Source: Verrucomicrobiota bacterium (GTDB lineage Bacteria > Verrucomicrobiota > Kiritimatiellia > SS1-B-03-39 > UBA6053). From it: DNA of 57,845 nucleotides. Both the position numbers and the translations under genes were made by a program. The notes beneath the pieces are model-generated. The model was not told the origin of the DNA, searched no databases, and saw only the letters and a list, made by a program, of their open reading frames with translations. This document shows positions 25,677-50,102 of this stretch, piece after piece. The first letter of the stretch is position 1. Each line of letters begins with the position of its first letter. The stretch lies in the NCBI GenBank assembly GCA_020831635.1, contig JAFIGC010000018.1, positions 1 through 57,845 of the forward strand, read 5' to 3'.

Positions 25677-27905
25677 TTAAAAAGGCCCCAGGAATTCCCG
25701 GTAAAATGGATGTTCGAATCTGGGGTCGATGAGGAGGGCGCGTCCCCGGTCTTCGGGACCGCGTATGACGCGTCCGAGGGCTTGCAGCACGCGCAGCAGG
25801 CCGGGGAAGGTGTAGGCGACGACGAAACCGTCTTCGCCGCGGGCCTGATGGTAGTTGCGGAGGATTTCGCGGCGGGGTATGACGGCGGGCAGGCCGATGC
25901 TGACCACGACGACACCGGTCAATGCGTCTCCGGGCAGATCGATGCCTTCGTTGAGGGCACCACCCAATACCGCCAAAGCGGTAACGGGTCCACCATCCTC
26001 ACGGAAGGGTTTCAGGAAGGTCACGCTCTCGGCTTCTTGCAGGCCCCGGGGCTGGGCGAGGATGGGCCCCAGCCAAAGGTCGTCGGTGGGCAGCCGTTTG
26101 CAGATTTCCTCGAGGATTTCAAAGGAGGGCAGGTACACGAGAGTTTTTCCGGGTTGGGCTTCGAGAAATTGTCGAATACGGGCCGCCAGCCGGTCATACG
26201 TGGCCGGCCCCCGGGCGCGGTAGACCACGGGGATGTCGGTTTCCAAACTCAAGGGGAAGCGTTCGGGGTCAAAGGGCGAAGGCAGCAACAACTCCCGGTC
26301 TTGGGGGGTGGATCCGGTCATTTGACGAAACAGACGCAGGGGACGCAGGGTGGCGGAAAAGAGGATGGCCGCGTGCAGGGCCTCGAGATCCGTTCCCACC
26401 GGTTCCGCCGCGTCGCGGCAGAAATGATGCAGGACCTGTCCGTCCCGATAGACCACGTGGGCGGGGCGGTGACGTTCCACGCCGAGCCAAAACCCCCGCA
26501 AAACGCGGCTGAGCGCGGGCCGGGGATCATCCGCCAAACGGGGACAGGCCCCGTAGGAGAAGTCGATGGCCTCGGCGGCGCGGCGGCAGGCTTCGGCCAA
26601 CTCCCGGGGCGGCGTTTCGGTAATGCCGTCGAACAATTCCACTTCGCGGGCGGCGCGTTGGACCCGCCGCAGGTGTGGGGACAGACCCCTTAAATTCGGG
26701 GACAGGCCCCGTAAAATTTTGCCGATTTCGGCGAGGTCGAGTTCGGCGGAGTGCATTTCCCGACTGCGTTCGGGGAGGTGATGGGCTTCGTCGATGAGAA
26801 GGGCGGTGGTTTCGGGTTTCGTCCCGAACAGAAAATGCAGGCGGGCGGTGGGGTCGAGGGCGTAGTTGACATCGCCGATGAGGAGGTCGGCCTCGCGGGC
26901 GGCGTGCATCATAAAGGCAAAGGGGCAGAGTCGATGGGTTTCGGCCACGCGTTGCCAGGCATCGGTATCTTTGGGCGCTTGTTCCCGCCAGTCCGCCAAG
27001 GCCGCGTTGAGGCGGTCGTAAAAGCCGATGGCGAGCGGACAGGCGGAGCAGTCGCAGGGCGTACCGTTATTCCGGCATACGCGGTCTTTGGCCACCAGGG
27101 TCAGGGAACGGATTTCCGCGCCTTGGTCCATGAGCGTTTGCAGGGCATCGGTGAACATGGTTTTTCCGCTGTTGCGGCAGGTGGCGACGAATACGGTTTC
27201 GCAGTGTCCCCGACCGAGGGCGCGGAGGGCGGGAATGAGGACGGCGAGGGTTTTGCCGACACCGGTGGGCGCTTCGGCGTAAAGGCGTCCGCCCTGACTC
27301 AGGGTTTGGGTGGCGGCGGCCATGAGTTCGTCCTGCCCGGGGCGGGTCTCGGGATAGGGAAAGGCCAGATCGGCCAGGGTGGCATTGCGCCGGGTGGTCC
27401 ATGCGTCGGCGGCCTGGCGCCATTGCAGGTAATCGGTGGCGGCGGCATCCACTTCGCGGGCAAGTTGGTCGGGGGACAGCGTTTCTTCCAGACACCAGCC
27501 GTCCCCGCGTTCGGGGGGCAGATAGCGCACCCGGAAACGGGGACAGACCCCTTCAAGTTTCCACCACATCCAGGCGTAAATCAGGGCTTGCAGGCGGTGG
27601 ACGGGATAATCGAGGGGCTTTTCGCCTTCGGGAGCGCGGGTGGTTTTGATTTCTTCGATGACGGGGCCGTCGGGGGTTTGTTCGATGCCGTCGGCGCGTC
27701 CCTGCAAGTCCAATGGGCCGGCGGGGCCTTCCCAGGTCGTGCGCAGGGTGACCTCGGCCTGAAAACCGGGGCCGCGGTCATTTTGCATGCGCCGGTGGGC
27801 GCGAATGCCGTCCACGCCGCGCAGGAGGCTGAAATGATCGCTGCCAAGATCCCCGCTGCGTCCGGCGAAGGCGGCCAGTTCGCGAACGCCGACGGACGGG
27901 GTCAT
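25677..27905 (-). CDS. RecB/Cas4-like nuclease fused to a DinG/XPD-type FeS helicase
   Basis: 742 aa. The N-terminal part (about 40-130) carries a PD-(D/E)XK nuclease signature: D72 in GRADGIE, E-x-K in VIEEIKTT (85-87) and the QALIY motif (Q106, Y110). Then comes a superfamily 2 helicase: Walker A APTGVGKT (212-219), FeS-cluster cysteines near C277, C284, C289 and C327, LLIDEAHHLPE, and C-terminal motifs GALNEGIDLPG and QALGRVIRGPED. XPD/DinG helicases unwind 5'-3' and act in repair. The ATG overlaps the argC stop as ATGA. Two pieces of the protein (RGLSP twice; GACPR/GVCPR) come from short palindromic insertions in the DNA. Confidence 0.88.
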   Translation of the reverse strand: MTPSVGVRELAAFAGRSGDLGSDHFSLLRGVDGIRAHRRMQNDRGPGFQAEVTLRTTWEGPAGPLDLQGRADGIEQTPDGPVIEEIKTTRAPEGEKPLDYPVHRLQALIYAWMWWKLEGVCPRFRVRYLPPERGDGWCLEETLSPDQLAREVDAAATDYLQWRQAADAWTTRRNATLADLAFPYPETRPGQDELMAAATQTLSQGGRLYAEAPTGVGKTLAVLIPALRALGRGHCETVFVATCRNSGKTMFTDALQTLMDQGAEIRSLTLVAKDRVCRNNGTPCDCSACPLAIGFYDRLNAALADWREQAPKDTDAWQRVAETHRLCPFAFMMHAAREADLLIGDVNYALDPTARLHFLFGTKPETTALLIDEAHHLPERSREMHSAELDLAEIGKILRGLSPNLRGLSPHLRRVQRAAREVELFDGITETPPRELAEACRRAAEAIDFSYGACPRLADDPRPALSRVLRGFWLGVERHRPAHVVYRDGQVLHHFCRDAAEPVGTDLEALHAAILFSATLRPLRLFRQMTGSTPQDRELLLPSPFDPERFPLSLETDIPVVYRARGPATYDRLAARIRQFLEAQPGKTLVYLPSFEILEEICKRLPTDDLWLGPILAQPRGLQEAESVTFLKPFREDGGPVTALAVLGGALNEGIDLPGDALTGVVVVSIGLPAVIPRREILRNYHQARGEDGFVVAYTFPGLLRVLQALGRVIRGPEDRGRALLIDPRFEHPFYREFLGPF
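26539..26711. repeat. Three copies of the palindromic motif ggggacag(a/g)cccc inside the helicase gene
   Basis: Copies at 26539-26553, 26677-26689 and 26697-26711, all in the same orientation, with flanks such as aaac or aattc before and ccgt or cctt after. The two adjacent copies encode RGLSPNLRGLSPHL. Each copy can form a GGGG/CCCC stem. Confidence 0.8.
27539..27551. repeat. Fourth copy of ggggacagacccc in the helicase gene
   Basis: Same motif and orientation as the copies at 26539-26711, encoding GVCPRF in the nuclease-helicase protein. Confidence 0.75.
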
Positions 27906-37667: not shown

Positions 37668-38930
37668 ATGCATTCTTCTCCAAAGCCGCCTTCCGTTGAC
37701 CTTGCCGTGGCCGGCGGCGGCGCCGCCGGTTTTTTTGCGGCTCTGCACGCCAAAAGCGCTTCTCCGGAATCGCGGGTGGTCATCCTCGAAAAATCCCGGG
37801 AGTTTCTCGCCAAGGTGGCCATTTCCGGGGGCGGACGCTGCAATGTCACCCACCACTGCTTCGATCCCGCCAAGTTGATCCGCTTTTATCCCCGGGGCGG
37901 AAAGGAATTGCGCGGAGCCTTTCACCGGTTTCAACCCTCGGACACCATGGAGTGGTTTTCTTCCCGCGGCGTGGCCTTGAAGGTGGAGGCGGACGGACGG
38001 GTCTTTCCCGTCAGCGACAACTCTGCGGACATCATCAACGCCCTGCTTTCCGAGGCGGATCAACTGGGCGTAAAGCGCAATCCTTTGCAGGGCATTCAGT
38101 CGGCACGTCCCTTGGACGATGGATTTCTGCTGACCTTGACGGACGACAGCGCCCTGCATTGCCGGGCCCTGGTGCTGGCCACGGGTGGCAACCGGGGAAG
38201 CGGGGGCCTGGAGGTGGCCAAAAGCATGGGCCACACCATTTTGGATCCCGTCCCCTCCCTGTTCAGTTTTCACGTGCGTTCGCCCATCCTCGAAGGTCTC
38301 GCGGGCATCACCGTCGATCCCGTGGAGGTGCGCATTCCCGCCTTGGCCGCCCACGAATCCGGTTCCATGCTCATCACCCACAAGGGCCTCAGCGGCCCCG
38401 CCATTCTCAAACTCTCGGCCTGGCAGGCCCGCGCGCTTGCGGAGCGATCCGACCAGGTGGAGTTGGATATCAATTGGCTGGGCACCCTCAAAGAGCAGGA
38501 GGTCCGCGACGAAATGGATCGTTTGCGCCGCGATCAGGGCGGACGCTTCGTCTCCCGCACGCCCATCGGCGGTCTGCCCCGGCGGTTGTGGGAACGGTTG
38601 GTGCAACTTGCCGACATATCGGAAGCCACCACTTGGGCGAGACTGCCGGGGAGTCAACGCGACGCTCTGGCCGCGTTTCTCGTTTGCAGCCGCATGCCCA
38701 TGCGCGGCAAAACCATGAACAAAGAAGAATTCGTGACCTGTGGCGGCGTTTGCCTGAAAGAAATCAACATGAAGACTTTCGAGAGCCGCATCCAGCCCGG
38801 TCTCTTTTTCGCGGGAGAGGTGTTGGACATCGACGGGGTCACCGGCGGCTTCAACTTCCAAGCCGCGTGGACGGGCGGCTTTCTCGCCGGAAATGCCGCC
38901 GGGGAGTATCTGCTGGGGCTACTACGGTAA
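37668..38930 (+). CDS. BaiN/HI0933-like FAD-dependent oxidoreductase
   Basis: 420 aa. N-terminal dinucleotide loop VAGGGAAGFFAALHA, then the family signature KVAISGGGRCNVTH, and a C-terminal FAD segment GEVLDIDGVTGGFNFQAAWTGGF. The middle (about 190-340) is the inserted beta/helical domain typical of HI0933-like flavoproteins (SFHVRSPILEGLAGITVDPV, LLITHKGLSGPAIL-like MLITHKGLSGPAIL). Physiological substrate unknown; BaiN itself acts on bile acids. It probably shares a transcript with recA. Confidence 0.9.
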   Translation: MHSSPKPPSVDLAVAGGGAAGFFAALHAKSASPESRVVILEKSREFLAKVAISGGGRCNVTHHCFDPAKLIRFYPRGGKELRGAFHRFQPSDTMEWFSSRGVALKVEADGRVFPVSDNSADIINALLSEADQLGVKRNPLQGIQSARPLDDGFLLTLTDDSALHCRALVLATGGNRGSGGLEVAKSMGHTILDPVPSLFSFHVRSPILEGLAGITVDPVEVRIPALAAHESGSMLITHKGLSGPAILKLSAWQARALAERSDQVELDINWLGTLKEQEVRDEMDRLRRDQGGRFVSRTPIGGLPRRLWERLVQLADISEATTWARLPGSQRDALAAFLVCSRMPMRGKTMNKEEFVTCGGVCLKEINMKTFESRIQPGLFFAGEVLDIDGVTGGFNFQAAWTGGFLAGNAAGEYLLGLLR

Positions 38931-38966: not shown

Positions 38967-41534
38967 TCAGTCCGCGGCATCGCCTTCTTCATGCCAAATC
39001 GTTCCGTCAAAGCGGAATTTTCTTGCGCCCAGGGTGAGTTGCGGGGCTTCCCAAACGGGGGTATGGACGGTTTCGCCGTCCGGGGTCAATTGGATCACGG
39101 TCACCAGGGTCAGGGTTTCGCGTTGGGCTTTTAAATCGGCATGGGCCAGTTCATCGCCAAAATCGAGCAACAGGTCGGGCACCTGACCCTCGAGCAACAT
39201 GCGGCGATCATCGTCGCGAAAGCGTTTGTCGGGGGCCGTTTGGGGATCCAAAACAAACAAAATCCGGCCCCGGGTGCCTTCGCGATTGCTGGCGCGTCGG
39301 TTTAGGGTCAATGGGCGGGGGGAGAACAGATGAAAGGTGAGGGCGTGGTCGTGTCGGGAATGGGTCAACTTGCCTTCTTTGGGCAGCCACTCGGCGTGGG
39401 GCAGTCCGCCGTTGAGATAATATTGCAGGTGTTTTTCCTCGTCCAGGCCCACGTCTCGAAAGGTGTCGGCGATCAGGAGGATGGGGGTTGGTCCGGAAAG
39501 ATCGGCCCATACGGAGCGGTCGATGTCGGGGGTGCGGAGGGCGAGGGTGGGGCGTTGGCTGCCTCCGGGATCGGCGTGGAGGGTTTGGGCCGGACCGGGG
39601 GATTCTCTTCCGGCAATGCGGGGGATGGAGGCCCAGTCTTCGCCGGCGCGTTCGTGTCCGGGGGCATTCAGCCAGGCAATGGCTTGGCCGCCGGGTTGGC
39701 CTTCGGCAAACACCAGGGAAAGCGGACGTTCGGAGGCGGTGCCGCCCATGAGTCCCAGCAGGCGACCTTCGGGATGTCGGACCAGTCGGGCCCCCGATCC
39801 GTCCTGGATGAAGAGAAAGCCGGGCGGTTGTTCGGGTTCAGCGACGCGGTCCGCGGCCATGGCCAACAGGGGCAGAAAGGCGTCGGTGGGGCGTCTGACC
39901 GGAGGCTCCGTGTTTTCCAACAACCAGGCGGCAATGCGGGCTTCCCATTCGGAAATGAGCGGCAACATGTTGAGGGCCATGCGCAGGCGTTCCTCGCCAC
40001 TGTGCAGGTCCCGCCACAAGCCGGCCACCACCGGAGTTTGGTCCAGCCCGGTTCCGTGCAGGGGATCGTCGCGGAAGGCCCGCCTGTGGGCGAGGGCGAA
40101 AAGCGGAAAATGATCGGTCAGGCCTTTGGTTTCCGTTCCGTCAAAGGCCAGTTCCACGGCCGCGAAGCGGTTGATTTCCTCGAAAATCTCCCGGATGTGG
40201 TTGTCGAGCACGTTCGGGTTTTCGGCGAACCAGGCCCGGGCCTCTTCGGCGCCTTTTTGTTCCTCGGCCAAACGCTCGGGGGTCAGAATGTCGAAATGGG
40301 GCGCCTGCCGGGCGTATCCGCCGGTGACGGGCATATGGACCATGACGGGGTACAGACCGGGTTCGACCCGCACCACTTCGTCGTCTTGAACTTCGATGCC
40401 GTTCAGCCACATGCGGACGTTTCGGGAGGACCATTTCAGATTGGGAAAGGCGCGCACGGTTTTTGCGCTCTCCACTTCCCAGAGGGTATAGAGGACAATG
40501 GCCGTTCCCGCCGTGGGTCCTTCGGTTTCCAGAATCCACTCGCGCACCCGGCGTCCGGGCGGAAACCCGCGTCCGGTGCTGCGGGTGAAGAACCTCATGC
40601 AGTCGCGGGGATAAAAGACGGGGTTTTCAGTTGCGGAGGCGGGATGATAGGGGCGGAAGTCGAGGGAGGTGTCGCCCGCGGTCACCCGGGTGCCGGGGAC
40701 GGGTCTGGCTTCCGCGAATCCGCCCACAGCCTGCAGGGGATCGGCGTCCGAAGCGGGAAAAGGACCGTTTGCGATCCATTCGGAGAACATTTGCCCGTCC
40801 CGAAGCCGGACCACGGGCATGCCCGGGGGTAAAATCAGATCGGTTGCGGGGGGGATGGAGCGGAGACTGTCGGGTTCGGGAGGCGAAAAGGGCTCCAGCG
40901 GATCGTGGCGAATGGCCATGGCCGCGAGTCCCGCCGCTGCAAGGTAGCGACGGTGTTCGGCGTGTCCGGGGCCTCGGTTTCGGGAAGCGGTTTCACCGGC
41001 ATATTGATAGCGTCCGCCGGTGTTGAAGCGGTCGGGCGGTTCCTCGCCGGTGCCGCTCGCGTAATATTCCACTTGTCGGAAAAGAAAATGATGGACGTTT
41101 CTTCGGAAATCTTCAGGCCAGGCGGGGGCGCAAAAGTCGTAGGCCAGGGCGATGTGGGCCACCCGATAGGCCTGCCGCCATTGGTTTTTGTCCGCCAAGG
41201 AGCCATACATGCCCTCCCAAACCCAGATCATGGCCTGTTCGGCGTGTTTTTCATCGCCGGTGAGCAGATACAGAAACCCTTCACCCGCCGCCCAGGTGGG
41301 GGTCATCATGGCTTCGGCGGTTTCGCCGTGAAAGGCGAATCCCGCTTCCCGTCCCAGACGCAGAAGATCGCGGAGGGGTGTCATCCAGCGTTGTCCCGCC
41401 GGAGATTCCGCCGTTTCACGCAGGGCCGGCAAATCGTCGGCGGAAAACAACAGATGAGGATGCTCGGCGGTCCGTCCGGGAAGGCCCAGGCAGGATAACA
41501 GGCAAAATGTCAGGGAAAAGCAGGCGAATTTCAT
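38967..41534 (-). CDS. Secreted heparinase/alginate-lyase-like protein
   Basis: 855 aa with a signal peptide (MKFACFSLTFCLLSCLGLPG). The opening EHPHLLFSADDLPALRETAES is typical of alpha/alpha-toroid polysaccharide lyases, followed by QWRQAYRVAHIALAYDFCAP. The rest (from about 230) is a long beta-rich region with repeated carbohydrate-type strands, unlike a standard PL8/PL12 layout. Catalytic residues cannot be confirmed. Probably acts on acidic polysaccharides outside the inner membrane. It overlaps the upstream secreted-protein gene by ATGA (41531-41534). Confidence 0.6.
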   Translation of the reverse strand: MKFACFSLTFCLLSCLGLPGRTAEHPHLLFSADDLPALRETAESPAGQRWMTPLRDLLRLGREAGFAFHGETAEAMMTPTWAAGEGFLYLLTGDEKHAEQAMIWVWEGMYGSLADKNQWRQAYRVAHIALAYDFCAPAWPEDFRRNVHHFLFRQVEYYASGTGEEPPDRFNTGGRYQYAGETASRNRGPGHAEHRRYLAAAGLAAMAIRHDPLEPFSPPEPDSLRSIPPATDLILPPGMPVVRLRDGQMFSEWIANGPFPASDADPLQAVGGFAEARPVPGTRVTAGDTSLDFRPYHPASATENPVFYPRDCMRFFTRSTGRGFPPGRRVREWILETEGPTAGTAIVLYTLWEVESAKTVRAFPNLKWSSRNVRMWLNGIEVQDDEVVRVEPGLYPVMVHMPVTGGYARQAPHFDILTPERLAEEQKGAEEARAWFAENPNVLDNHIREIFEEINRFAAVELAFDGTETKGLTDHFPLFALAHRRAFRDDPLHGTGLDQTPVVAGLWRDLHSGEERLRMALNMLPLISEWEARIAAWLLENTEPPVRRPTDAFLPLLAMAADRVAEPEQPPGFLFIQDGSGARLVRHPEGRLLGLMGGTASERPLSLVFAEGQPGGQAIAWLNAPGHERAGEDWASIPRIAGRESPGPAQTLHADPGGSQRPTLALRTPDIDRSVWADLSGPTPILLIADTFRDVGLDEEKHLQYYLNGGLPHAEWLPKEGKLTHSRHDHALTFHLFSPRPLTLNRRASNREGTRGRILFVLDPQTAPDKRFRDDDRRMLLEGQVPDLLLDFGDELAHADLKAQRETLTLVTVIQLTPDGETVHTPVWEAPQLTLGARKFRFDGTIWHEEGDAAD

Positions 41535-42595
41535 GGGGATTTCCTTCCTTTCAGGGTCGAGAGCACGTCCCGCATGCCGGTCTCGAATTCAATCAAATGT
41601 TCCCAGTAGCGGACGGTTTGCCTGCCAAGTTTGAAGAGAACCTGGTCTGCGGCTTTTCCCTTTTCCGGTTCCGGGGGTGGGGCATTGGATACCGTGAGGA
41701 CGAGCGCCATTTGCTGGTTGACCCGGCGTTGCAGTCCGGGCGCGCCCATGGCCGTGGAGGTGGCCACGGCACCGAGGACACGCCGGGCATGTTCGGGCAT
41801 CTCCACTTCGATTTCCGCCGCAAGGTCGTCGGGATCCTCCAAAGTGAGGTCGTCATGCAATACGGCTTCTTCCCAGACTGGCTCCTGCTTGTCGTCCGGA
41901 GAACGCAGCCAAAATCGGACCCGGGTACCGCCGTTTTCAGCGGTCAACTCGATGTGGGGCGCGGCCGGAAAGAGCAGGGTGCCCCGCAGGATCAGGTTGT
42001 CGTTCGGCAACGCCACGCTGAATTGATGGCCGTCGAGTTGAATGTCCGCCGGCTCCACGCCGGGGAGGAATAGGGGAGCTTCCACGGCCCGCAATCCAAA
42101 ACCGTCGTGACCCCAAACGGCCACCCACAGTCCTTGGGTGCCGGAAGCGTCCGAGGTGTCCGCCCCCACCGTCCACCAAGTGCGCGCCCCTTCAAGTGGC
42201 TCCAGGTTGTCGACGCGTTGATAGCTGTTTCGATGCAAAGAGACGGAGCCGCTGCCCGTCGGCGCGGTGCGGAGATTGACCCGGCGGGCCGGATGGGGGG
42301 ACAAGACCGCGGGTTCACGCCCGGGCACGCCGGGGTGAATGACCAAACCCTCCAGACGAAACCAAAGACTTTCGTTTTGGTGAACCTCCAGAACATCGGC
42401 ATCGGCTTCCGATTGAATCCGGGTCGTCCATGGGACTTGGGGGTTCTGCAACCAAACCGTGGTGTCGCGGGCGCTTGCGTGCCAGCCTTCCGGAAATTCA
42501 GGCGGATTCTCCGCACCCGAAGGGGACGGAAACAAAAAGCCGAAAATCAGAAGCGCACTCAGAGAAGGCGAGGAAATCCATTGTGAGAAAGTCAT
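41531..42595 (-). CDS. Secreted hypothetical protein coupled to the lyase-like gene
   Basis: 354 aa from ATG 42595 (two codons after another possible start at 42601). A signal peptide (SLSALLIFGFLFPSPSGA) leads to a beta-rich domain with SVSLHRNSYQRVDNLEP, WTVGADTSDASGTQGLWVAV and a C-terminal acidic/helical tail. No known family; possibly a carbohydrate-binding or sandwich-fold partner. The four-base overlap with the lyase-like gene argues they work together. Confidence 0.65.
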   Translation of the reverse strand: MTFSQWISSPSLSALLIFGFLFPSPSGAENPPEFPEGWHASARDTTVWLQNPQVPWTTRIQSEADADVLEVHQNESLWFRLEGLVIHPGVPGREPAVLSPHPARRVNLRTAPTGSGSVSLHRNSYQRVDNLEPLEGARTWWTVGADTSDASGTQGLWVAVWGHDGFGLRAVEAPLFLPGVEPADIQLDGHQFSVALPNDNLILRGTLLFPAAPHIELTAENGGTRVRFWLRSPDDKQEPVWEEAVLHDDLTLEDPDDLAAEIEVEMPEHARRVLGAVATSTAMGAPGLQRRVNQQMALVLTVSNAPPPEPEKGKAADQVLFKLGRQTVRYWEHLIEFETGMRDVLSTLKGRKSP

Positions 42596-42622
42596 GCCCA
42601 TAAAAAGCGATTTTTTTCAGGG

Positions 42623-42643
42623 AAAGTCAAGCCCGTCGTTATT
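42623..42643. repeat. 21-bp direct repeat, left copy
   Basis: Identical to 43072-43092 (starts aaagtcaagcccgtcg). The two bracket a 428-base non-coding segment. Confidence 0.85.
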
Positions 42644-42693
42644 GTGAACAGGAGAGCGCAGAGAGCGCAGAGGGGAATGGCGGTGTTATGGCG

Positions 42694-42777
42694 AGTGTAG
42701 AATGACGAGTGCGGAGTGACGAGTTTCCCATCCCCTTATCCCTTATCCATTGTCCCTTATCCGCGGCGAAGCCGCAT
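42694..42777. repeat. Heptamer-like repeats around a gcggcgaagccgc hairpin
   Basis: Runs with 7-base periodicity (gacgagt/gcggagt; cccttat/ccattgt) lead into a compact hairpin at 42763-42775. The same kind of run with a GCGAAGC-type hairpin occurs at 50280-50397. Upstream (42650-42675) is a gagcgcaga repeat. Confidence 0.7.
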
Positions 42778-42854
42778 ACCCCCGGAACCCCGAAAAAGCC
42801 AAGACTTCAAACTAACTTCAACTGGGTATCCCGCCCGGGGGGGCGGGTTTGACT

Positions 42855-43033
42855 GGGAAAGCCTTCGGTCTCTTTCTATTCAACCACTCAGGCTTTTGGG
42901 AGACCGGGCTCTTCAGCTTGCGTCGGATTTTGCGATTTCGGGGGGCTAACGCATCTCTTGATGGTGACGTCCCCCCGAAAGCGCGAAAGGCGGCGTGAGA
43001 TCAAGAGTCCGGTCTCCCCCGAAGGCTTTTCCC
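42855..43033. repeat. Non-coding region with nested inverted repeats
   Basis: P1: gggaaagccttcgg (42855-42868) with ccgaaggcttttccc (43019-43033). P2: gggagaccgggctctt (42898-42913) with aagagtccggtctccc (43003-43018), 15 of 16. P3: tttcgggggg (42936-42945) with ccccccgaaa (42971-42980), perfect. P1 and P2 abut. A direct repeat ctattcaacca occurs at 42876 and again near 43043. No protein-coding gene is visible from 42602 to 43239, so this may be a structured RNA or a mobile element remnant. Confidence 0.75.
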
Positions 43034-43071
43034 CATTTTCGGGCTATTCAACCATTCTTTCTCAAAACTCA

Positions 43072-43092
43072 AAAGTCAAGCCCGTCGTTATT
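43072..43092. repeat. 21-bp direct repeat, right copy
   Basis: Identical to 42623-42643. An A-rich tract follows (43127-43145) and a short stem-loop with gaaggct/agccttc arms lies at 43184-43203. Confidence 0.85.
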
Positions 43093-43239
43093 TTTGCCCG
43101 TCTGACGCTTCACGGAGCCCTAAAACGAAAAAAATAAAAAATAAATCTAATATTCGCGCGTTTGGCAACGTCCAATGCTTGATGAAGGCTACTCTGAGCC
43201 TTCGCAAAAAACAAATGGACAACCCCATGGAGTCAAACA

Positions 43240-43626
43240 ATGAAATTTATTCTCTCTCTCGTCACCCTGCTTTTCTCGGGGATGCTGATGGCCGATGAAC
43301 CCACCGCAGTGACCGTTTCCCTGCAAACCCCGCATCCCGGCTTCGGGCTGGAAATCGAACGGGTGGTGCAAAAGGACGGTGAATTGCATGTCCTCGCCAA
43401 GGTGATTGCCCCGGATCCTGACATGATGTATGCCATGGTCATCTCCGAAGTGTCCGACACCGTACACGTGGATGCCCCCGCCGGCAAAATCAACGCCTAT
43501 GTCTACAACCGCACTTGGTCTTGGGACGACGACCGGGTGACGGCACTCGACAACGCCGCCGACTTCAATGAAAAAACGGACGGCGGAGAAGCCGTGAAAA
43601 TCAAACGTCCCGGCAAAGATAAATAA
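43240..43626 (+). CDS. Small secreted hypothetical protein
   Basis: 128 aa with a signal peptide (MKFILSLVTLLFSGMLMA) and a compact beta-rich domain (DEPTAVTVSLQTPHPGFGLE, EVSDTVHVDAPAG). No family recognised. Preceded by the A/T-rich stretch after the nested-repeat region, which could hold its promoter. It converges with the SDR gene with five bases between stops. Confidence 0.65.
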   Translation: MKFILSLVTLLFSGMLMADEPTAVTVSLQTPHPGFGLEIERVVQKDGELHVLAKVIAPDPDMMYAMVISEVSDTVHVDAPAGKINAYVYNRTWSWDDDRVTALDNAADFNEKTDGGEAVKIKRPGKDK

Positions 43627-46747: not shown

Positions 46748-46824
46748 TGCGGGGTGGAGCAGCCAGGTAGCTCGTCAGGCTCATAACCTGAAGGCCGCAG
46801 GTTCAAATCCTGCCCCCGCTACCA
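46748..46824 (+). tRNA. tRNA-Met (CAT), initiator-like
   Basis: A 77-nt cloverleaf with anticodon CAT in CTCATAA, D-loop AGCAGCCAGGTAGCTCGTC, T-arm GGTTCAAATCC, and encoded CCA. The first base T cannot pair with T72, the unpaired 1:72 position expected of initiators. The anticodon stem is TCAGG/CCTGA, with only two of the usual three G-C pairs (29:41 is A:T). The body otherwise closely resembles bacterial tRNA-fMet. Confidence 0.92.
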
Positions 46825-47017: not shown

Positions 47018-48370
47018 TCAAATATCCATGTCGATTTCCGAAGATTTTTCGAGCTTCAATAAGCGGCTTTCCAAATCCTTTTCCGGGTAAAAGTACAGCG
47101 TCTTTCCCGCCTTGGTCTGTTGCAGCAGGTTCAAGCCCGCCAAATCCAGCAAATCTGTTCGTGCGGTTTGATAGGCCACATTGTGGCTACGCCGATGACT
47201 GGCAATGCTGTAGCGCTGCCCCGGATGCTTGAGCGCATGTTCGATCAGGGCTGCCTGTCGATGGTTCATCAGCCGCACCGCTTTCAAATGGGATTCCACC
47301 CGCCGGGTATCCTCCGCCTTGCGTTTGATGTACGCGAACAGACGTTCCATCGCTTTTTCAATCACCCGAATTTCGTCGAGAATGAAATAGGTCAGGTCAT
47401 TCCCGTCCGTCTCCGTGTACAGGAAAGACCGTTCGTATTTCACCGGTGATTCTTTCAACACGCTGGAAATCGAGACAAATTCAAAAAGCCAATATCCGCT
47501 CCGCAACATACTCCAATAAAACAAAGCCCGCGCCGTCCGCCCGTTCCCATCCACAAAGGGATGGTCATAGGCCAGCCAGAAGTGCAGGATGATGGCCCGA
47601 ATCGCGGGGTGGACGAAGTGATCCGGGGTTTTGCCGTTCGCAAAATCGCACATGGCCTGCAAACGCCCCGGCAGCGAATCGGGCGGAGGCGGCACATGAT
47701 AAATCTCCCCCTCTCCACCGACAATGTGCACGGCTTCCTCCGCCTTTCGAAACCGCCCCGCCGCATCCGGATTGTCCATCGTTTTTTCAGTGACCAAACG
47801 ATGCAAGGCAAACACCCGTTCCGGGGTCAGGGGCTGATCGCGCAATTCCCGGATCTCCCGCATGGTGATGTAGTTGTTGAGGATCATCCGCTCGCTTTTG
47901 TCGCGGGGTTTTCGACCCTGCCGCAACATCTCCTTGGCCACCTCGCGGGTCGTCGCCGCTCCCTCCAACTGACTGGAGGTGATCGCCTCCTCAATCAGGG
48001 AATTGACCACATAGCGGTCCCGGGTTTCGGCGTTGGTAATCGGTTCCGGAAACTCAATGCGCCCGCCGCCACCCAGATCAATTTTGTGAAGGGACCTTTG
48101 CAGGGATTCCGGCACGGTGAAGCCAAAAGGCCGGCCTTGCACATCGACAAGAGGCGAATCGATGGTGTTCATGACCCGTCTGCGCTTCAGAACATACCAC
48201 CATTCCTGGTGTGTCAGACCTTCGGGTGCCGGCCGTCTGCGCAATTCATCCCAATGCAAATAGAGCCCGTCCTCCAACTTTGACTCCTGATCGAGCACAT
48301 AAAACCACCGATCCATTTCGACGCTTTCCATCAAAGCTGAGTATTCTGTTGGTTTTTCGGGTATTTTCAT
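47018..48370 (-). CDS. Fic-family AMP transferase (class II, N-terminal inhibitory motif)
   Basis: 450 aa. The catalytic Fic motif HPFVDGNGRTAR begins at H270. The inhibitory motif S-x3-E-G is at 132-137 (TSSQLEGA), N-terminal as in class II. A beta-hairpin flap region (EEAVHIVGGEGEIYHVPPPP) precedes it. The last 90 residues look like a winged HTH (YSIASHRRSHNVAYQTARTD), suggesting it binds DNA and controls its own gene. Fic enzymes usually transfer AMP to target proteins. Two identical-type operators sit directly upstream. It stands as the first gene after the tRNA on the accessory side. Confidence 0.92.
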   Translation of the reverse strand: MKIPEKPTEYSALMESVEMDRWFYVLDQESKLEDGLYLHWDELRRRPAPEGLTHQEWWYVLKRRRVMNTIDSPLVDVQGRPFGFTVPESLQRSLHKIDLGGGGRIEFPEPITNAETRDRYVVNSLIEEAITSSQLEGAATTREVAKEMLRQGRKPRDKSERMILNNYITMREIRELRDQPLTPERVFALHRLVTEKTMDNPDAAGRFRKAEEAVHIVGGEGEIYHVPPPPDSLPGRLQAMCDFANGKTPDHFVHPAIRAIILHFWLAYDHPFVDGNGRTARALFYWSMLRSGYWLFEFVSISSVLKESPVKYERSFLYTETDGNDLTYFILDEIRVIEKAMERLFAYIKRKAEDTRRVESHLKAVRLMNHRQAALIEHALKHPGQRYSIASHRRSHNVAYQTARTDLLDLAGLNLLQQTKAGKTLYFYPEKDLESRLLKLEKSSEIDMDI

Positions 48371-48376
48371 AACGTT

Positions 48377-48448
48377 ATCTACTAATATGCACCAACTTAG
48401 TAGATATTGAAAGCGTAAAATCTACTAATATGTGATATTTTAGTAGGT
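48377..48448 (-). promoter_or_regulatory. Two tandem operators of the Fic gene
   Basis: Operator 1: atctactaa (48377-48385) / ttagtagat (48397-48405). Operator 2: atctactaa (48420-48428) / ttagtaggt (48440-48448). Both have 9-bp arms with 11-base spacers, and their centres are 43 bp apart, about four helical turns. They lie 7 bases before the Fic start on the minus strand. The Fic C-terminal HTH is the natural candidate ligand. Confidence 0.75.
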
Positions 48449-48588
48449 TTTGTTATCCAACCGAATCACTCATCAGCGTCTCCAAACGGGTTGCGCCCAA
48501 ATCGGGCACTCTACCCCAGCAAAAATAATCAACCGATAGCGATAAATACACCTGCAATAAAATAAAAATGCTGGTATAACTGTCGTCA

Positions 48589-49203
48589 ATGACCTCCGAA
48601 CCCACCGACCGACTCCAAAACGCCCGTGCCATCTTTCTGCGTCACGGCGGAATCCTCCGCACCCGCGACGCGCTCCAGGAGGGTATCCACCCCGAGATCC
48701 TCTACCGCATGCGCGATCTGGGCCACATCCAAGCCCTCAGTCGTGGACTCTATCGCCTTGCCGACCAACCCGAGCCCGGCCAGCCCGATCTCCTCACCGT
48801 CTGCAAACGCAGTCCCGCCGCCGTCATTTGCATGATTTCCGCCCTCGCGTACCACGGCATCACGACGCAAATCCCCCATGCCGTGGATATCGCCCTGCCG
48901 CGCGGAAGCGAGCCCCCTCGCATACAGTATCCCCCCGTCAACATCTACTGGACCGTCCCCCACATCTTCACCCAAGGCATCCAAGAAGCCCCCATCGACG
49001 GCCATTCCCTTCGCATCTACAGCCCAGAACGCTGCATTGTCGACGTCTTCCGCCACCGGAACAAACTCGGACTCGACACCGCCCTCGAAGCCCTCCGCCT
49101 CTACCGCGAACGCCTTCCGCTCCAAACAGACACCCTTCTTCGTCTTGCCCGGGTCTGCCGGGTCGAATCCATCCTCACTCCCTACCTCCAGAGCACCCTG
49201 TGA
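48589..49203 (+). CDS. abiEi: AbiEi-type antitoxin, second locus
   Basis: 204 aa. N-terminal winged helix (RAIFLRHGGILRTRDALQEG, GLYRLAD) and AbiEi C-terminal domain (AAVICMISALAYHGIT, VDIALPRGSEPP, SPERCIVDVFRHRNKLG, EALRLYRERLPLQ). Related but not identical to the copy at 35134-35766. The stop overlaps the toxin's GTG start (GTGA), ensuring coupled synthesis. A -10-like TATAAC and an imperfect tacacc/ggtata repeat lie just upstream (48547-48577) as possible control elements. Confidence 0.9.
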   Translation: MTSEPTDRLQNARAIFLRHGGILRTRDALQEGIHPEILYRMRDLGHIQALSRGLYRLADQPEPGQPDLLTVCKRSPAAVICMISALAYHGITTQIPHAVDIALPRGSEPPRIQYPPVNIYWTVPHIFTQGIQEAPIDGHSLRIYSPERCIVDVFRHRNKLGLDTALEALRLYRERLPLQTDTLLRLARVCRVESILTPYLQSTL

Positions 49204-50102
49204 CCTCACCCAAAGCCAATCTCCCCGCCTCCGTTCGCCAGCGACTCCTCAACCGCGCCCGCGAAAACAACCTGCCCTTTCAGGAACTCGCCCAGCGCTA
49301 CGCCATCGAACGCTTCCTCTCACGCCTCGCCCAATCCCCCCACGCCGATCGTTTCATCCTCAAAGGAGCCCAGATGTTGCTGGTCTGGGACAGCCAAAGC
49401 TCCCGCCCCACCATGGACATCGATTTCCTTGGACGCACCACAAACACCCCAGACCACATCCGCACCCTCTTTCAGGAGATTTGCGCCCTCCAACCGCCCA
49501 TCCCCGACGGAATCCAATTCCACCCCCAAACCGTCACGACCCTCACCATCAAAGAGGATGCCGACTACGAAGGCGTCCGCGCCACCTTCCAAGCCAGCCT
49601 CGACACCGTCAAGCTCCGCCTCCAAATCGACATCGGCTTCAACGACATCATCACCCCCGGCCCGGAACTTGTCCAATATCCCGGCCTCCTCGACTTTCCC
49701 GCCCCGACCCTCCGCGCCTACAACCGCGAAACCCTCATCGCCGAAAAAGTCGAAGCCATGGTCAAACTCGGTCTCCTCAATAGCCGAATGAAAGACTTCC
49801 ACGACATCTGGACCCTCTCGCGCTCCTTCCCCTTCACCAGCCGCGGGCTGCATCAGGCCCTCGCCGCAACCTTCCGGCAACGCCAGACCGAATTCCCCCA
49901 ACTCCCAAGCATCCTCACCGCAGCCCCTGCGGACCTTGCCGACAAACAAAAACAATGGCTGTCCTTCCGCCGCAAGAGCCGACTGACCCAAAGTCCCGAA
50001 ACCTTCCAGACCCTCACAGCCGATCTCGTCACCTTCCTCCAGCCCGCCATGGACCCCAACAGCTCCCCAAGGACCTGGGCCCCGCCCGGCCCCTGGGCCT
50101 GA
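49200..50102 (+). CDS. abiEii: AbiEii-type nucleotidyltransferase toxin
   Basis: 300 aa from GTG 49200. The NTase core shows FILKGAQMLLVW and TMDIDFLGR (the D-x-D metal pair). The mid region includes TLIAEKVEAMVKLGLLNSRMKDFHDIWTL, diagnostic of AbiEii, and the C-terminal helices AATFRQRQTEFPQ and FLQPAM. In characterised systems these toxins add nucleotides to tRNA or GTP-bind and stall translation; abortive infection follows when phage disturbs the balance. A proline-rich tail (PRTWAPPGPWA) ends it. The gene is complete, unlike the copy at 35759. Confidence 0.9.
   Translation: MTSPKANLPASVRQRLLNRARENNLPFQELAQRYAIERFLSRLAQSPHADRFILKGAQMLLVWDSQSSRPTMDIDFLGRTTNTPDHIRTLFQEICALQPPIPDGIQFHPQTVTTLTIKEDADYEGVRATFQASLDTVKLRLQIDIGFNDIITPGPELVQYPGLLDFPAPTLRAYNRETLIAEKVEAMVKLGLLNSRMKDFHDIWTLSRSFPFTSRGLHQALAATFRQRQTEFPQLPSILTAAPADLADKQKQWLSFRRKSRLTQSPETFQTLTADLVTFLQPAMDPNSSPRTWAPPGPWA

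Follow-up and report, generated by a model that had tools for sequence, protein, structure and literature searches.

A dispersed structured repeat with extensive base-pair covariation in one family of Kiritimatiellota

What occupies an intergenic region in which two identical 21-nucleotide sequences enclose several hundred bases of strongly self-complementary DNA? We addressed this question for a window of 57,845 nucleotides, the whole stretch of DNA analysed, which is contig C2 of host genome G000 (6.0 Mb in 308 contigs, 96.5% complete). An earlier note on this DNA had offered three possibilities, namely an undescribed structured RNA, a MITE-like mobile unit and a site for recombination. The stretch proves to be one copy of a dispersed family and not a one-off, and we are highly confident that this family constitutes a dispersed structured element in one Kiritimatiellota family. 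The best reading overall, which we consider probable, is that of a non-autonomous mobile element whose folded plus strand is the maintained part. The features of the window copy are as follows.

42623–42643, no strand assigned: left 21-mer, ancestral, upstream of the gene at 41531–42601; aligns with a single counterpart in the intergene of sister species G002.
42644–43071, no strand assigned: 428-bp insertion, a mosaic of repeats with the 21-bp duplication on both sides; the element is absent at the orthologous place in G002.
43072–43092, no strand assigned: right 21-mer, the duplicated copy; similar to the 3′ tail that the element normally carries (in other copies AAAAGCCAAGCC) and located where that tail would be.
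42639–42685, plus strand: unrelated dispersed repeat (beginning GAACAGGAGAGCGCAGAG) with further sites elsewhere in the genome.
42692–42775, plus strand: second unrelated dispersed repeat, recognized by genome search, with 7- and 14-bp tandem units and a terminal GCGGCGAAGCCGC palindrome.
42830–42847, plus strand: P0 hairpin with a 7-bp stem and a GGGG loop; the stem is perfect in 29 of 35 sequences.
42854–43033, plus strand: conserved structured core P1–P5, 180 model positions; scores 200.3 bits with covariance model R1 and 194.4 bits with R2.
42855–42868, plus strand: P1 5′ arm, pairing with 43019–43032.
42869–42897, plus strand: linker, single-stranded and variable, with no counterpart on the 3′ side; 10 copies share 73% identity.
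42898–42913, plus strand: P2 5′ arm, pairing with 43003–43018.
42917–42925, plus strand: P3 5′ arm, pairing with 42991–42999.
42928–42934, plus strand: P4 5′ arm, pairing with 42982–42988.
42936–42945, plus strand: P5 5′ arm (the P3 of the earlier note), pairing with 42971–42980.
42971–42980, plus strand: P5 3′ arm; the structure is least certain at the apex enclosed by the two P5 arms.
42982–42988, plus strand: P4 3′ arm, pairing with 42928–42934.
42991–42999, plus strand: P3 3′ arm, pairing with 42917–42925.
43003–43018, plus strand: P2 3′ arm, pairing with 42898–42913.
43019–43032, plus strand: P1 3′ arm, pairing with 42855–42868.

The bracketing 21-mers (AAAGTCAAGCCCGTCGTTATT) are identical and enclose 428 bp, as had been reported. 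Left and right flanks match by chance over about 8 nt, and over 11 nt at most in 100 shuffles, against 21 nt at this locus. No further site for the 21-mer exists in the 6.0-Mb host genome with up to three mismatches allowed, and we therefore reject the idea that it marks the ends of a repeat family, being unique to the window locus. All three of the nested stems described previously are present, with 13 of 14 positions paired in P1, 15 of 16 in P2 and 10 of 10 in what is now termed P5, and the 3′ arms of P2 and P1 do abut, at 43018/43019. The count of three was too low, as P3 and P4 lie between P2 and the apex, and P1, P2 and the apical stem are portions of a single rod. The region 42840–43050 is predicted to fold with −111 kcal/mol (z = −7.1; none of 200 shuffles is equally low), and of 481 windows taken along the contig, none reaches a folding energy as low as that of the 180-nt core. 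After the element, the strongest fold in the window is that at 27721–27900, with −98.7 kcal/mol per 180 nt.

Judged from the reading frames, the region appears to be devoid of any credible gene, in keeping with the initial description; the ORFs within or crossing it are of 47–77 aa only, and we noticed no apparent recurrence of these as a gene in the other element copies. With no ORF longer than 77 aa touching the insertion, there is no internal transposase gene, a property that it shares with MITEs. The genes immediately flanking the window copy on both sides carry no Pfam family. A nearby protein (37668–38930) has its best named relatives in a PVC-group metagenome-assembled genome (91% identity) and in Kiritimatiellota genomes (62–65%), which places the host among the Kiritimatiellota. 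Elsewhere in the window, at 47018–50102, a gene for a Fic-like protein is followed by two ORFs whose translations resemble an AbiEi/AbiEii toxin–antitoxin pair.

The repeat unit is approximately 225 bp long and comprises the 5′ P0 hairpin, the P1–P5 rod (64 pairs with a one-sided unpaired linker) and a short 3′ tail. Comparison of 42600–43240 with the same genome returned 55 places, some of them self-matches on the reverse strand and others belonging to the two other repeat families. The host genome holds 10 full-length core copies, that of the window included, and 19 partial loci, of which 8 are truly truncated or internally deleted and 11 run into the end of a contig, the assembly being broken inside the near-identical core. 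Indeed, contigs C12, C13, C76, C138, C151, C153, C170, C190 and C270 start or finish within the element core, and the repeat thus fragments the assembly.

Sister species of the genus, at roughly 80–85% identity, carry one full copy (G001) or five full and many partial copies (G002), and no copy was found in G003, of the same genus, by sequence or model search. Two species of another genus of the same family, G009 and G005, retain the fold with diverged sequence. Full-length counts with model R1, which spans P1 to its 3′ partner and was built from 16 copies, are 10 in G000, 1 in G001, 5 in G002, 3 in G009 and 1 in G005; model R2, rebuilt with the G009 and G005 copies, adds a second G005 copy (L266). 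A search of 387 genomes of the phylum, with seven candidates scored per genome, gave matches in G000 only, and its negatives are weak, given that it missed G005. In a different family of the class, G023 yields a 60.9-bit R2 match (L265, 1501–1671) with a small perfect hairpin at the linker position; this may be a distant member or a generic long palindrome, and it is excluded from the member count.

The neighbours of the copies are functionally unrelated (photolyase, arabinose isomerase, ruvB, obg, accA, mreB, dnaE and glycosyltransferases), and among the copies examined there is no fixed neighbouring gene. A preference for insertion at the 3′ ends of opposing genes was considered and rejected, since 10 of 14 Pfam-supported downstream genes face the element and 4 point away, which is too few. 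Carriage by phages was likewise rejected: exact 29- and 20-mers of the core have no match in the genome and viral contigs searched, and two 17-mers each matched one viral contig, neither with a model match (10 of the 82 loci L142–L223 searched).

Conservation of the rod is most readily appreciated from its covariation. In alignment A2 (16 copies), which was not fitted to the structure but draws most of its double changes from one G009 copy, 98.2% of cells are paired and 22 of 64 pairs are changed on both sides. Alignment A5 (13 copies), whose counts lean toward the structure to which it was fitted, has 95.7% of cells paired and compensatory double changes at 34 of 64 pairs. None of 500 shuffles reaches these counts in either alignment, and sliding the partners out of register reduces pairing from 96–98% to 41–56%, the range for A2 being 42–56%. 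The long-range signal derives from three G009 copies, which are 93% alike, and two G005 copies. Compared with the window, the G005 copy L110 has 20 of the 64 pairs changed on both sides, 10 changed on one side, 30 the same and 4 broken. Duplicates of other loci (L001, L005, L008, L043–L045, L050, L052, L055, L057, L101, L059 and L060) were excluded, and A2 is also without L054 (12-nt insert), L014 (diverged 3′ half) and all half copies. A5 retains 13 of the 19 element-strand matches of set A3, with L002, L003, L007, L009, L010 and L046 dropped to leave fewer near-duplicates.

The P0 hairpin lies outside the model. Its perfect 7-bp stem is formed by eight distinct stem sequences, whereas the constancy of its GGGG loop is not an independent result, as the loop belonged to the search pattern; in this survey, L010 and L085 yielded no match and that in L035 is spurious. 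Among 10 copies of the host genome, identity is 97.6–100% in the P1 arms, 96.8% in P2–P5, 88% in P0 and 75% in the 5′ stretch, and falls from 73% in the linker to 67% in the 3′ tail and 35% beyond. This uneven constraint could mean either that each copy is constrained, or that active source copies are constrained and the rest are young. Taken together, the substitutions indicate that selection maintains the plus-strand base pairs rather than the sequence, in five genomes of two genera. The earlier note had named further copies in the same genome and covariance among homologues among its checks, and the lack of these among the grounds for abandoning its proposal. The data contradict both of these grounds, with 10 full and 19 partial copies in the host and covarying pairs beyond the shuffled and slid controls.

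Which strand folds can be judged from the mismatches. Among 19 copies, the cells that depart from Watson–Crick pairing on the plus strand are G·U in 100 cases, A·C in 3 and of another kind in 37. The 18 other rows of A3 were omitted from this count, 17 of them being self-matches on the opposite strand and one an additional partial match in L051. In the window, the plus strand is predicted to fold with −111 kcal/mol and the minus strand with −91.5 kcal/mol, and the plus strand is also the better folder in L110 and the three copies of G009. The excess of G·U over A·C and the better fold together identify the plus strand as the folded molecule. This strand signal would be compatible with RNA or with single-stranded DNA, given that G·T is tolerated in DNA too.

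These observations bear directly on the possibility that the element is a functional structured RNA made from the plus strand, for example a regulator or protein-binding RNA, or one like 6S RNA, a retron RNA or a guide RNA, that would travel as a passenger of mobile elements and whose working would account for the maintained fold. The strong covariation (22 of 64 pairs in A2, 34 of 64 in A5), the 100 G·U against 3 A·C, the better plus-strand fold in the window, three G009 copies and one G005 copy, and the near-identity of the rod from copy to copy beside a drifting linker would all be expected of such an RNA. However, it belongs to no Rfam family, its neighbouring gene is not fixed and many of its copies are truncated. 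Reverse transcriptase domains occur in 6 of the 11 family genomes and in 4 of the 5 that bear the element, and a retron was rejected given that none of the family's 11 RVT_1 loci has a convincing R1 match (best 15.7 bits). We regard a passenger RNA as possible but unlikely. Of the original proposal of an undescribed structured RNA, the fold is real, is conserved by covariation in both genera and has no Rfam entry, but a folded DNA strand would look alike.

The ends of the element differ between genera. The three G009 copies have sharp ends, running from GGG, a few bases and TTGCGGCGGGG to CACTCCCCCTGCATGG over about 224 bp, with unrelated sequence outside and no terminal inverted repeats seen. 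The tail CCCCCTGCATGG is common to the G009 copies and L110, although the rest of L110 is much diverged; the other G005 copy, L266, is without it. In G000, G001 and G002, many copies sit inside larger units bounded by inverted repeats of about 19–25 bp near AGAGCC(C/T)GTTCGAAAAGCC. Sites of this kind exceed those of a reversed control pattern in G002 (26 versus 5), G000 (16 versus 2), G009 (7 versus 2) and G001 (2 versus 0), and equal them in G003 and G004 (2 versus 2 in each). A related 150-bp unit, L077 46–196 (G000:C221), has the same terminal repeats and no rod, and encloses a GCCGGTGCGGAGACTGGCGCTCC hairpin that resembles one upstream of many element copies.

Such boundaries raise the question of whether the element is a classical MITE, mobilized by a transposase that recognizes the terminal inverted repeats, with the rod as filler or as a nested older element. 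Its repeats (AGARCCNGTTCGAAAAGNC) are enriched over the control as just described for G002 and G000, one copy (G001:C430) is bounded by them at both ends (361 bp overall), and internally deleted variants retain one such end. Against this, homology among the G009 copies stops sharply without the repeats, neither terminal inverted repeat was found at the window copy, and compensatory changes are not expected of filler. Furthermore, among G000, G001, G002 and G009, the domain PF13358 occurs in G000 only (2 genes), and palindromic flanks blur any target duplication, as in L047, where AAGCTAG stands on either side of the element and the flank is nearly palindromic (AGCT/CTAG). A classical MITE is thus improbable in our judgement, and the earlier description of a MITE-like unit is supported as regards the many dispersed copies and the terminal inverted repeats on related copies of the genus, but not for the window copy, which has none.

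We also considered site-specific recombination, with integron attC sites as the example. These sites are single-strand hairpins conserved in structure more than in sequence, and the element likewise forms a long hairpin with structure conserved above sequence. Nevertheless, GTTRRRY is missing from the plus strand of 42783–43092, both core boxes are absent from the units of G009 and L110, and the copies are single and dispersed. Identity with attC was rejected, given the absence of paired RYYYAAC/GTTRRRY core boxes, and a recombination site of any such kind is barely credible. The initial suggestion of one found no support, and its accompanying remark that no attC layout could be confirmed agrees with the missing boxes.

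How the window copy came to lie between the 21-mers is a separate matter. The orthologous intergene of G002, between the same pair of genes, is shorter and lacks the element, and it holds the counterpart of the left 21-mer once, in place. The left 21-mer is therefore the ancestral one, and its right-hand duplicate dates from the insertion of 42644–43071. The insertion is a mosaic of the repeat that begins at 42639, the repeat at 42692–42775 and then the element; the two accompanying families consist of tandem 7-, 9- and 14-bp units. In 17 of 18 copies, flank repeats do not exceed the chance level (7–10 nt), the 21 bp of the window being the sole exception, and so we do not take these 21 bp for a target duplication of the kind that the family would habitually make. 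Their origin by template switching or repair is no less likely.

Specifically, there is about an even chance that 428 bp of repeats were copied into a break by template switching or end-joining repair, with 21 bp of the target re-copied. This account concerns the window insertion alone and is compatible with the claims made for the family. It would suit the exact duplication seen nowhere else among these copies, the combination of at least three repeat families in the insert, a right junction where the usual tail AAAAGCCAAGCC resembles the target AAAGTCAAGCC, and the loss of both terminal repeats. However, the genome search revealed no donor with the same whole mosaic, though 308 contigs leave gaps, and successive insertions could produce the same mosaic. 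The window copy itself would be a fixed one with truncated ends, brought in as part of a 428-bp mosaic with duplication of 21 bp of its target.

Returning to the favoured reading, a non-autonomous mobile element with a maintained plus-strand fold, the folded strand would be recognized by a trans-acting enzyme during mobilization. Our tentative candidate, by analogy with REP/REPIN and IS200/IS605 elements and at somewhat less than even likelihood, is a Y1 (HUH) single-strand transposase acting in trans, in which case terminal-repeat transposition in the window's genus would be a secondary carrier. Y1 is chosen because of the sharp ends without duplication, the strand specificity and the big palindromes at local Y1 genes; lack of flank duplication in 17 of 18 copies is expected of single-strand transposition. 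These giant nested palindromes (L234 1100–1360, L245 1180–1440, L235 1080–1420, L226 700–940 and L253 1990–2240; −120 to −189 kcal/mol) are unlike the element in sequence and were mostly selected via weak model matches.

Of the 11 family genomes, 10 have genes for Y1 transposases, namely all five that bear the element but also 5 of the 6 in which no copy was detected, so that co-occurrence is hardly informative. The five genomes with the element give 52 Y1 matches; at the 15 of these loci that were checked, the element is absent from the surrounding 1.5 kb or so, and across the family no model score exceeds 25.6 bits at the 30 Y1 loci checked of 113 matches. Counting against Y1, the terminal inverted repeats of the genus point to a different type of transposase, and the 21-bp duplication of the window is at odds with single-strand transposition. 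To our knowledge, moreover, a 64-pair rod far exceeds the hairpins bound by Y1-type enzymes. A driver of the Tc1/mariner type (IS630), suggested by TA at the flanks, was rejected: the PF13358 domain is confined to the two G000 genes and is lacking in G001, G002 and G009, and the TA reading did not hold across all copies. No autonomous partner of the element was found. A bolder extension, which we hold to be improbable, is that the element represents a class of mobile structured RNA, in which the plus-strand RNA (P0 with its GGGG loop and the 64-pair rod) would itself act in mobility or in a host or parasite function. In one genus it would move by itself, as a 225-bp unit with sharp ends, and in another it would have been captured in terminal-repeat transposons.

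With Rfam 15, the only match in the window is a tRNA at 46748, the best match for 42600–43240 with E up to 10 is far below the cut-offs, and at the G009 and L110 loci a flanking tRNA alone reaches the gathering cut-off. Among the top open-access listings and abstracts on Kiritimatiellota that were examined, nothing on such an element came up. The element is a rare case in which one fold is kept through heavy sequence turnover between genera. Its occurrence as sharp-ended units in one genus and bound by terminal repeats in another makes conservation as a DNA fold or as an RNA testable, and the covariance model can be used for finding it elsewhere. Dispersed structured repeats such as REP, REPIN, bcr1 and HEARO have repeatedly been found to serve unusual enzymes as substrates or to form part of them.

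Correia-type and other bacterial MITEs are short, free of ORFs and bounded by terminal inverted repeats, as are the genus copies described here, but the element differs in that these repeats are missing in the window and unseen in G009, and in that its internal structure is under selection. HEARO elements have many ORF-less genomic copies, as does the element described here. Bcr1-type repeats, like the element, are mobile and intergenic, with conserved secondary structure and lineage-limited spread. The element resembles HEARO/IscB omega RNA (PMC9755519) in being a structured RNA-like unit, and differs from the Bacillus cereus bcr1 repeats (PMC6542083, PMC2267715) in host phylum, sequence and architecture. 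Rfam scans of the window, G009 and L110 loci gave no covariance match to HEARO. The element is like REPIN/REP sequences with RAYT (Y1) transposases (PMC3116915, PMC2817692 and PMC8266576) in being dispersed, intergenic, palindromic, non-autonomous DNA, in having a Y1-rich host lineage and in the lack of a clear target duplication of the bare unit; it differs in its far longer 64-pair rod, asymmetric linker and cross-genus covariation. Moreover, it adjoins no Y1 gene in the 15 loci checked, and we do not assign it to the REPIN/RAYT systems. By analogy, the element would work most like REPINs or bcr1-type repeats, and we regard it as a new bacterial repeat family whose structure covaries to an unusual extent.
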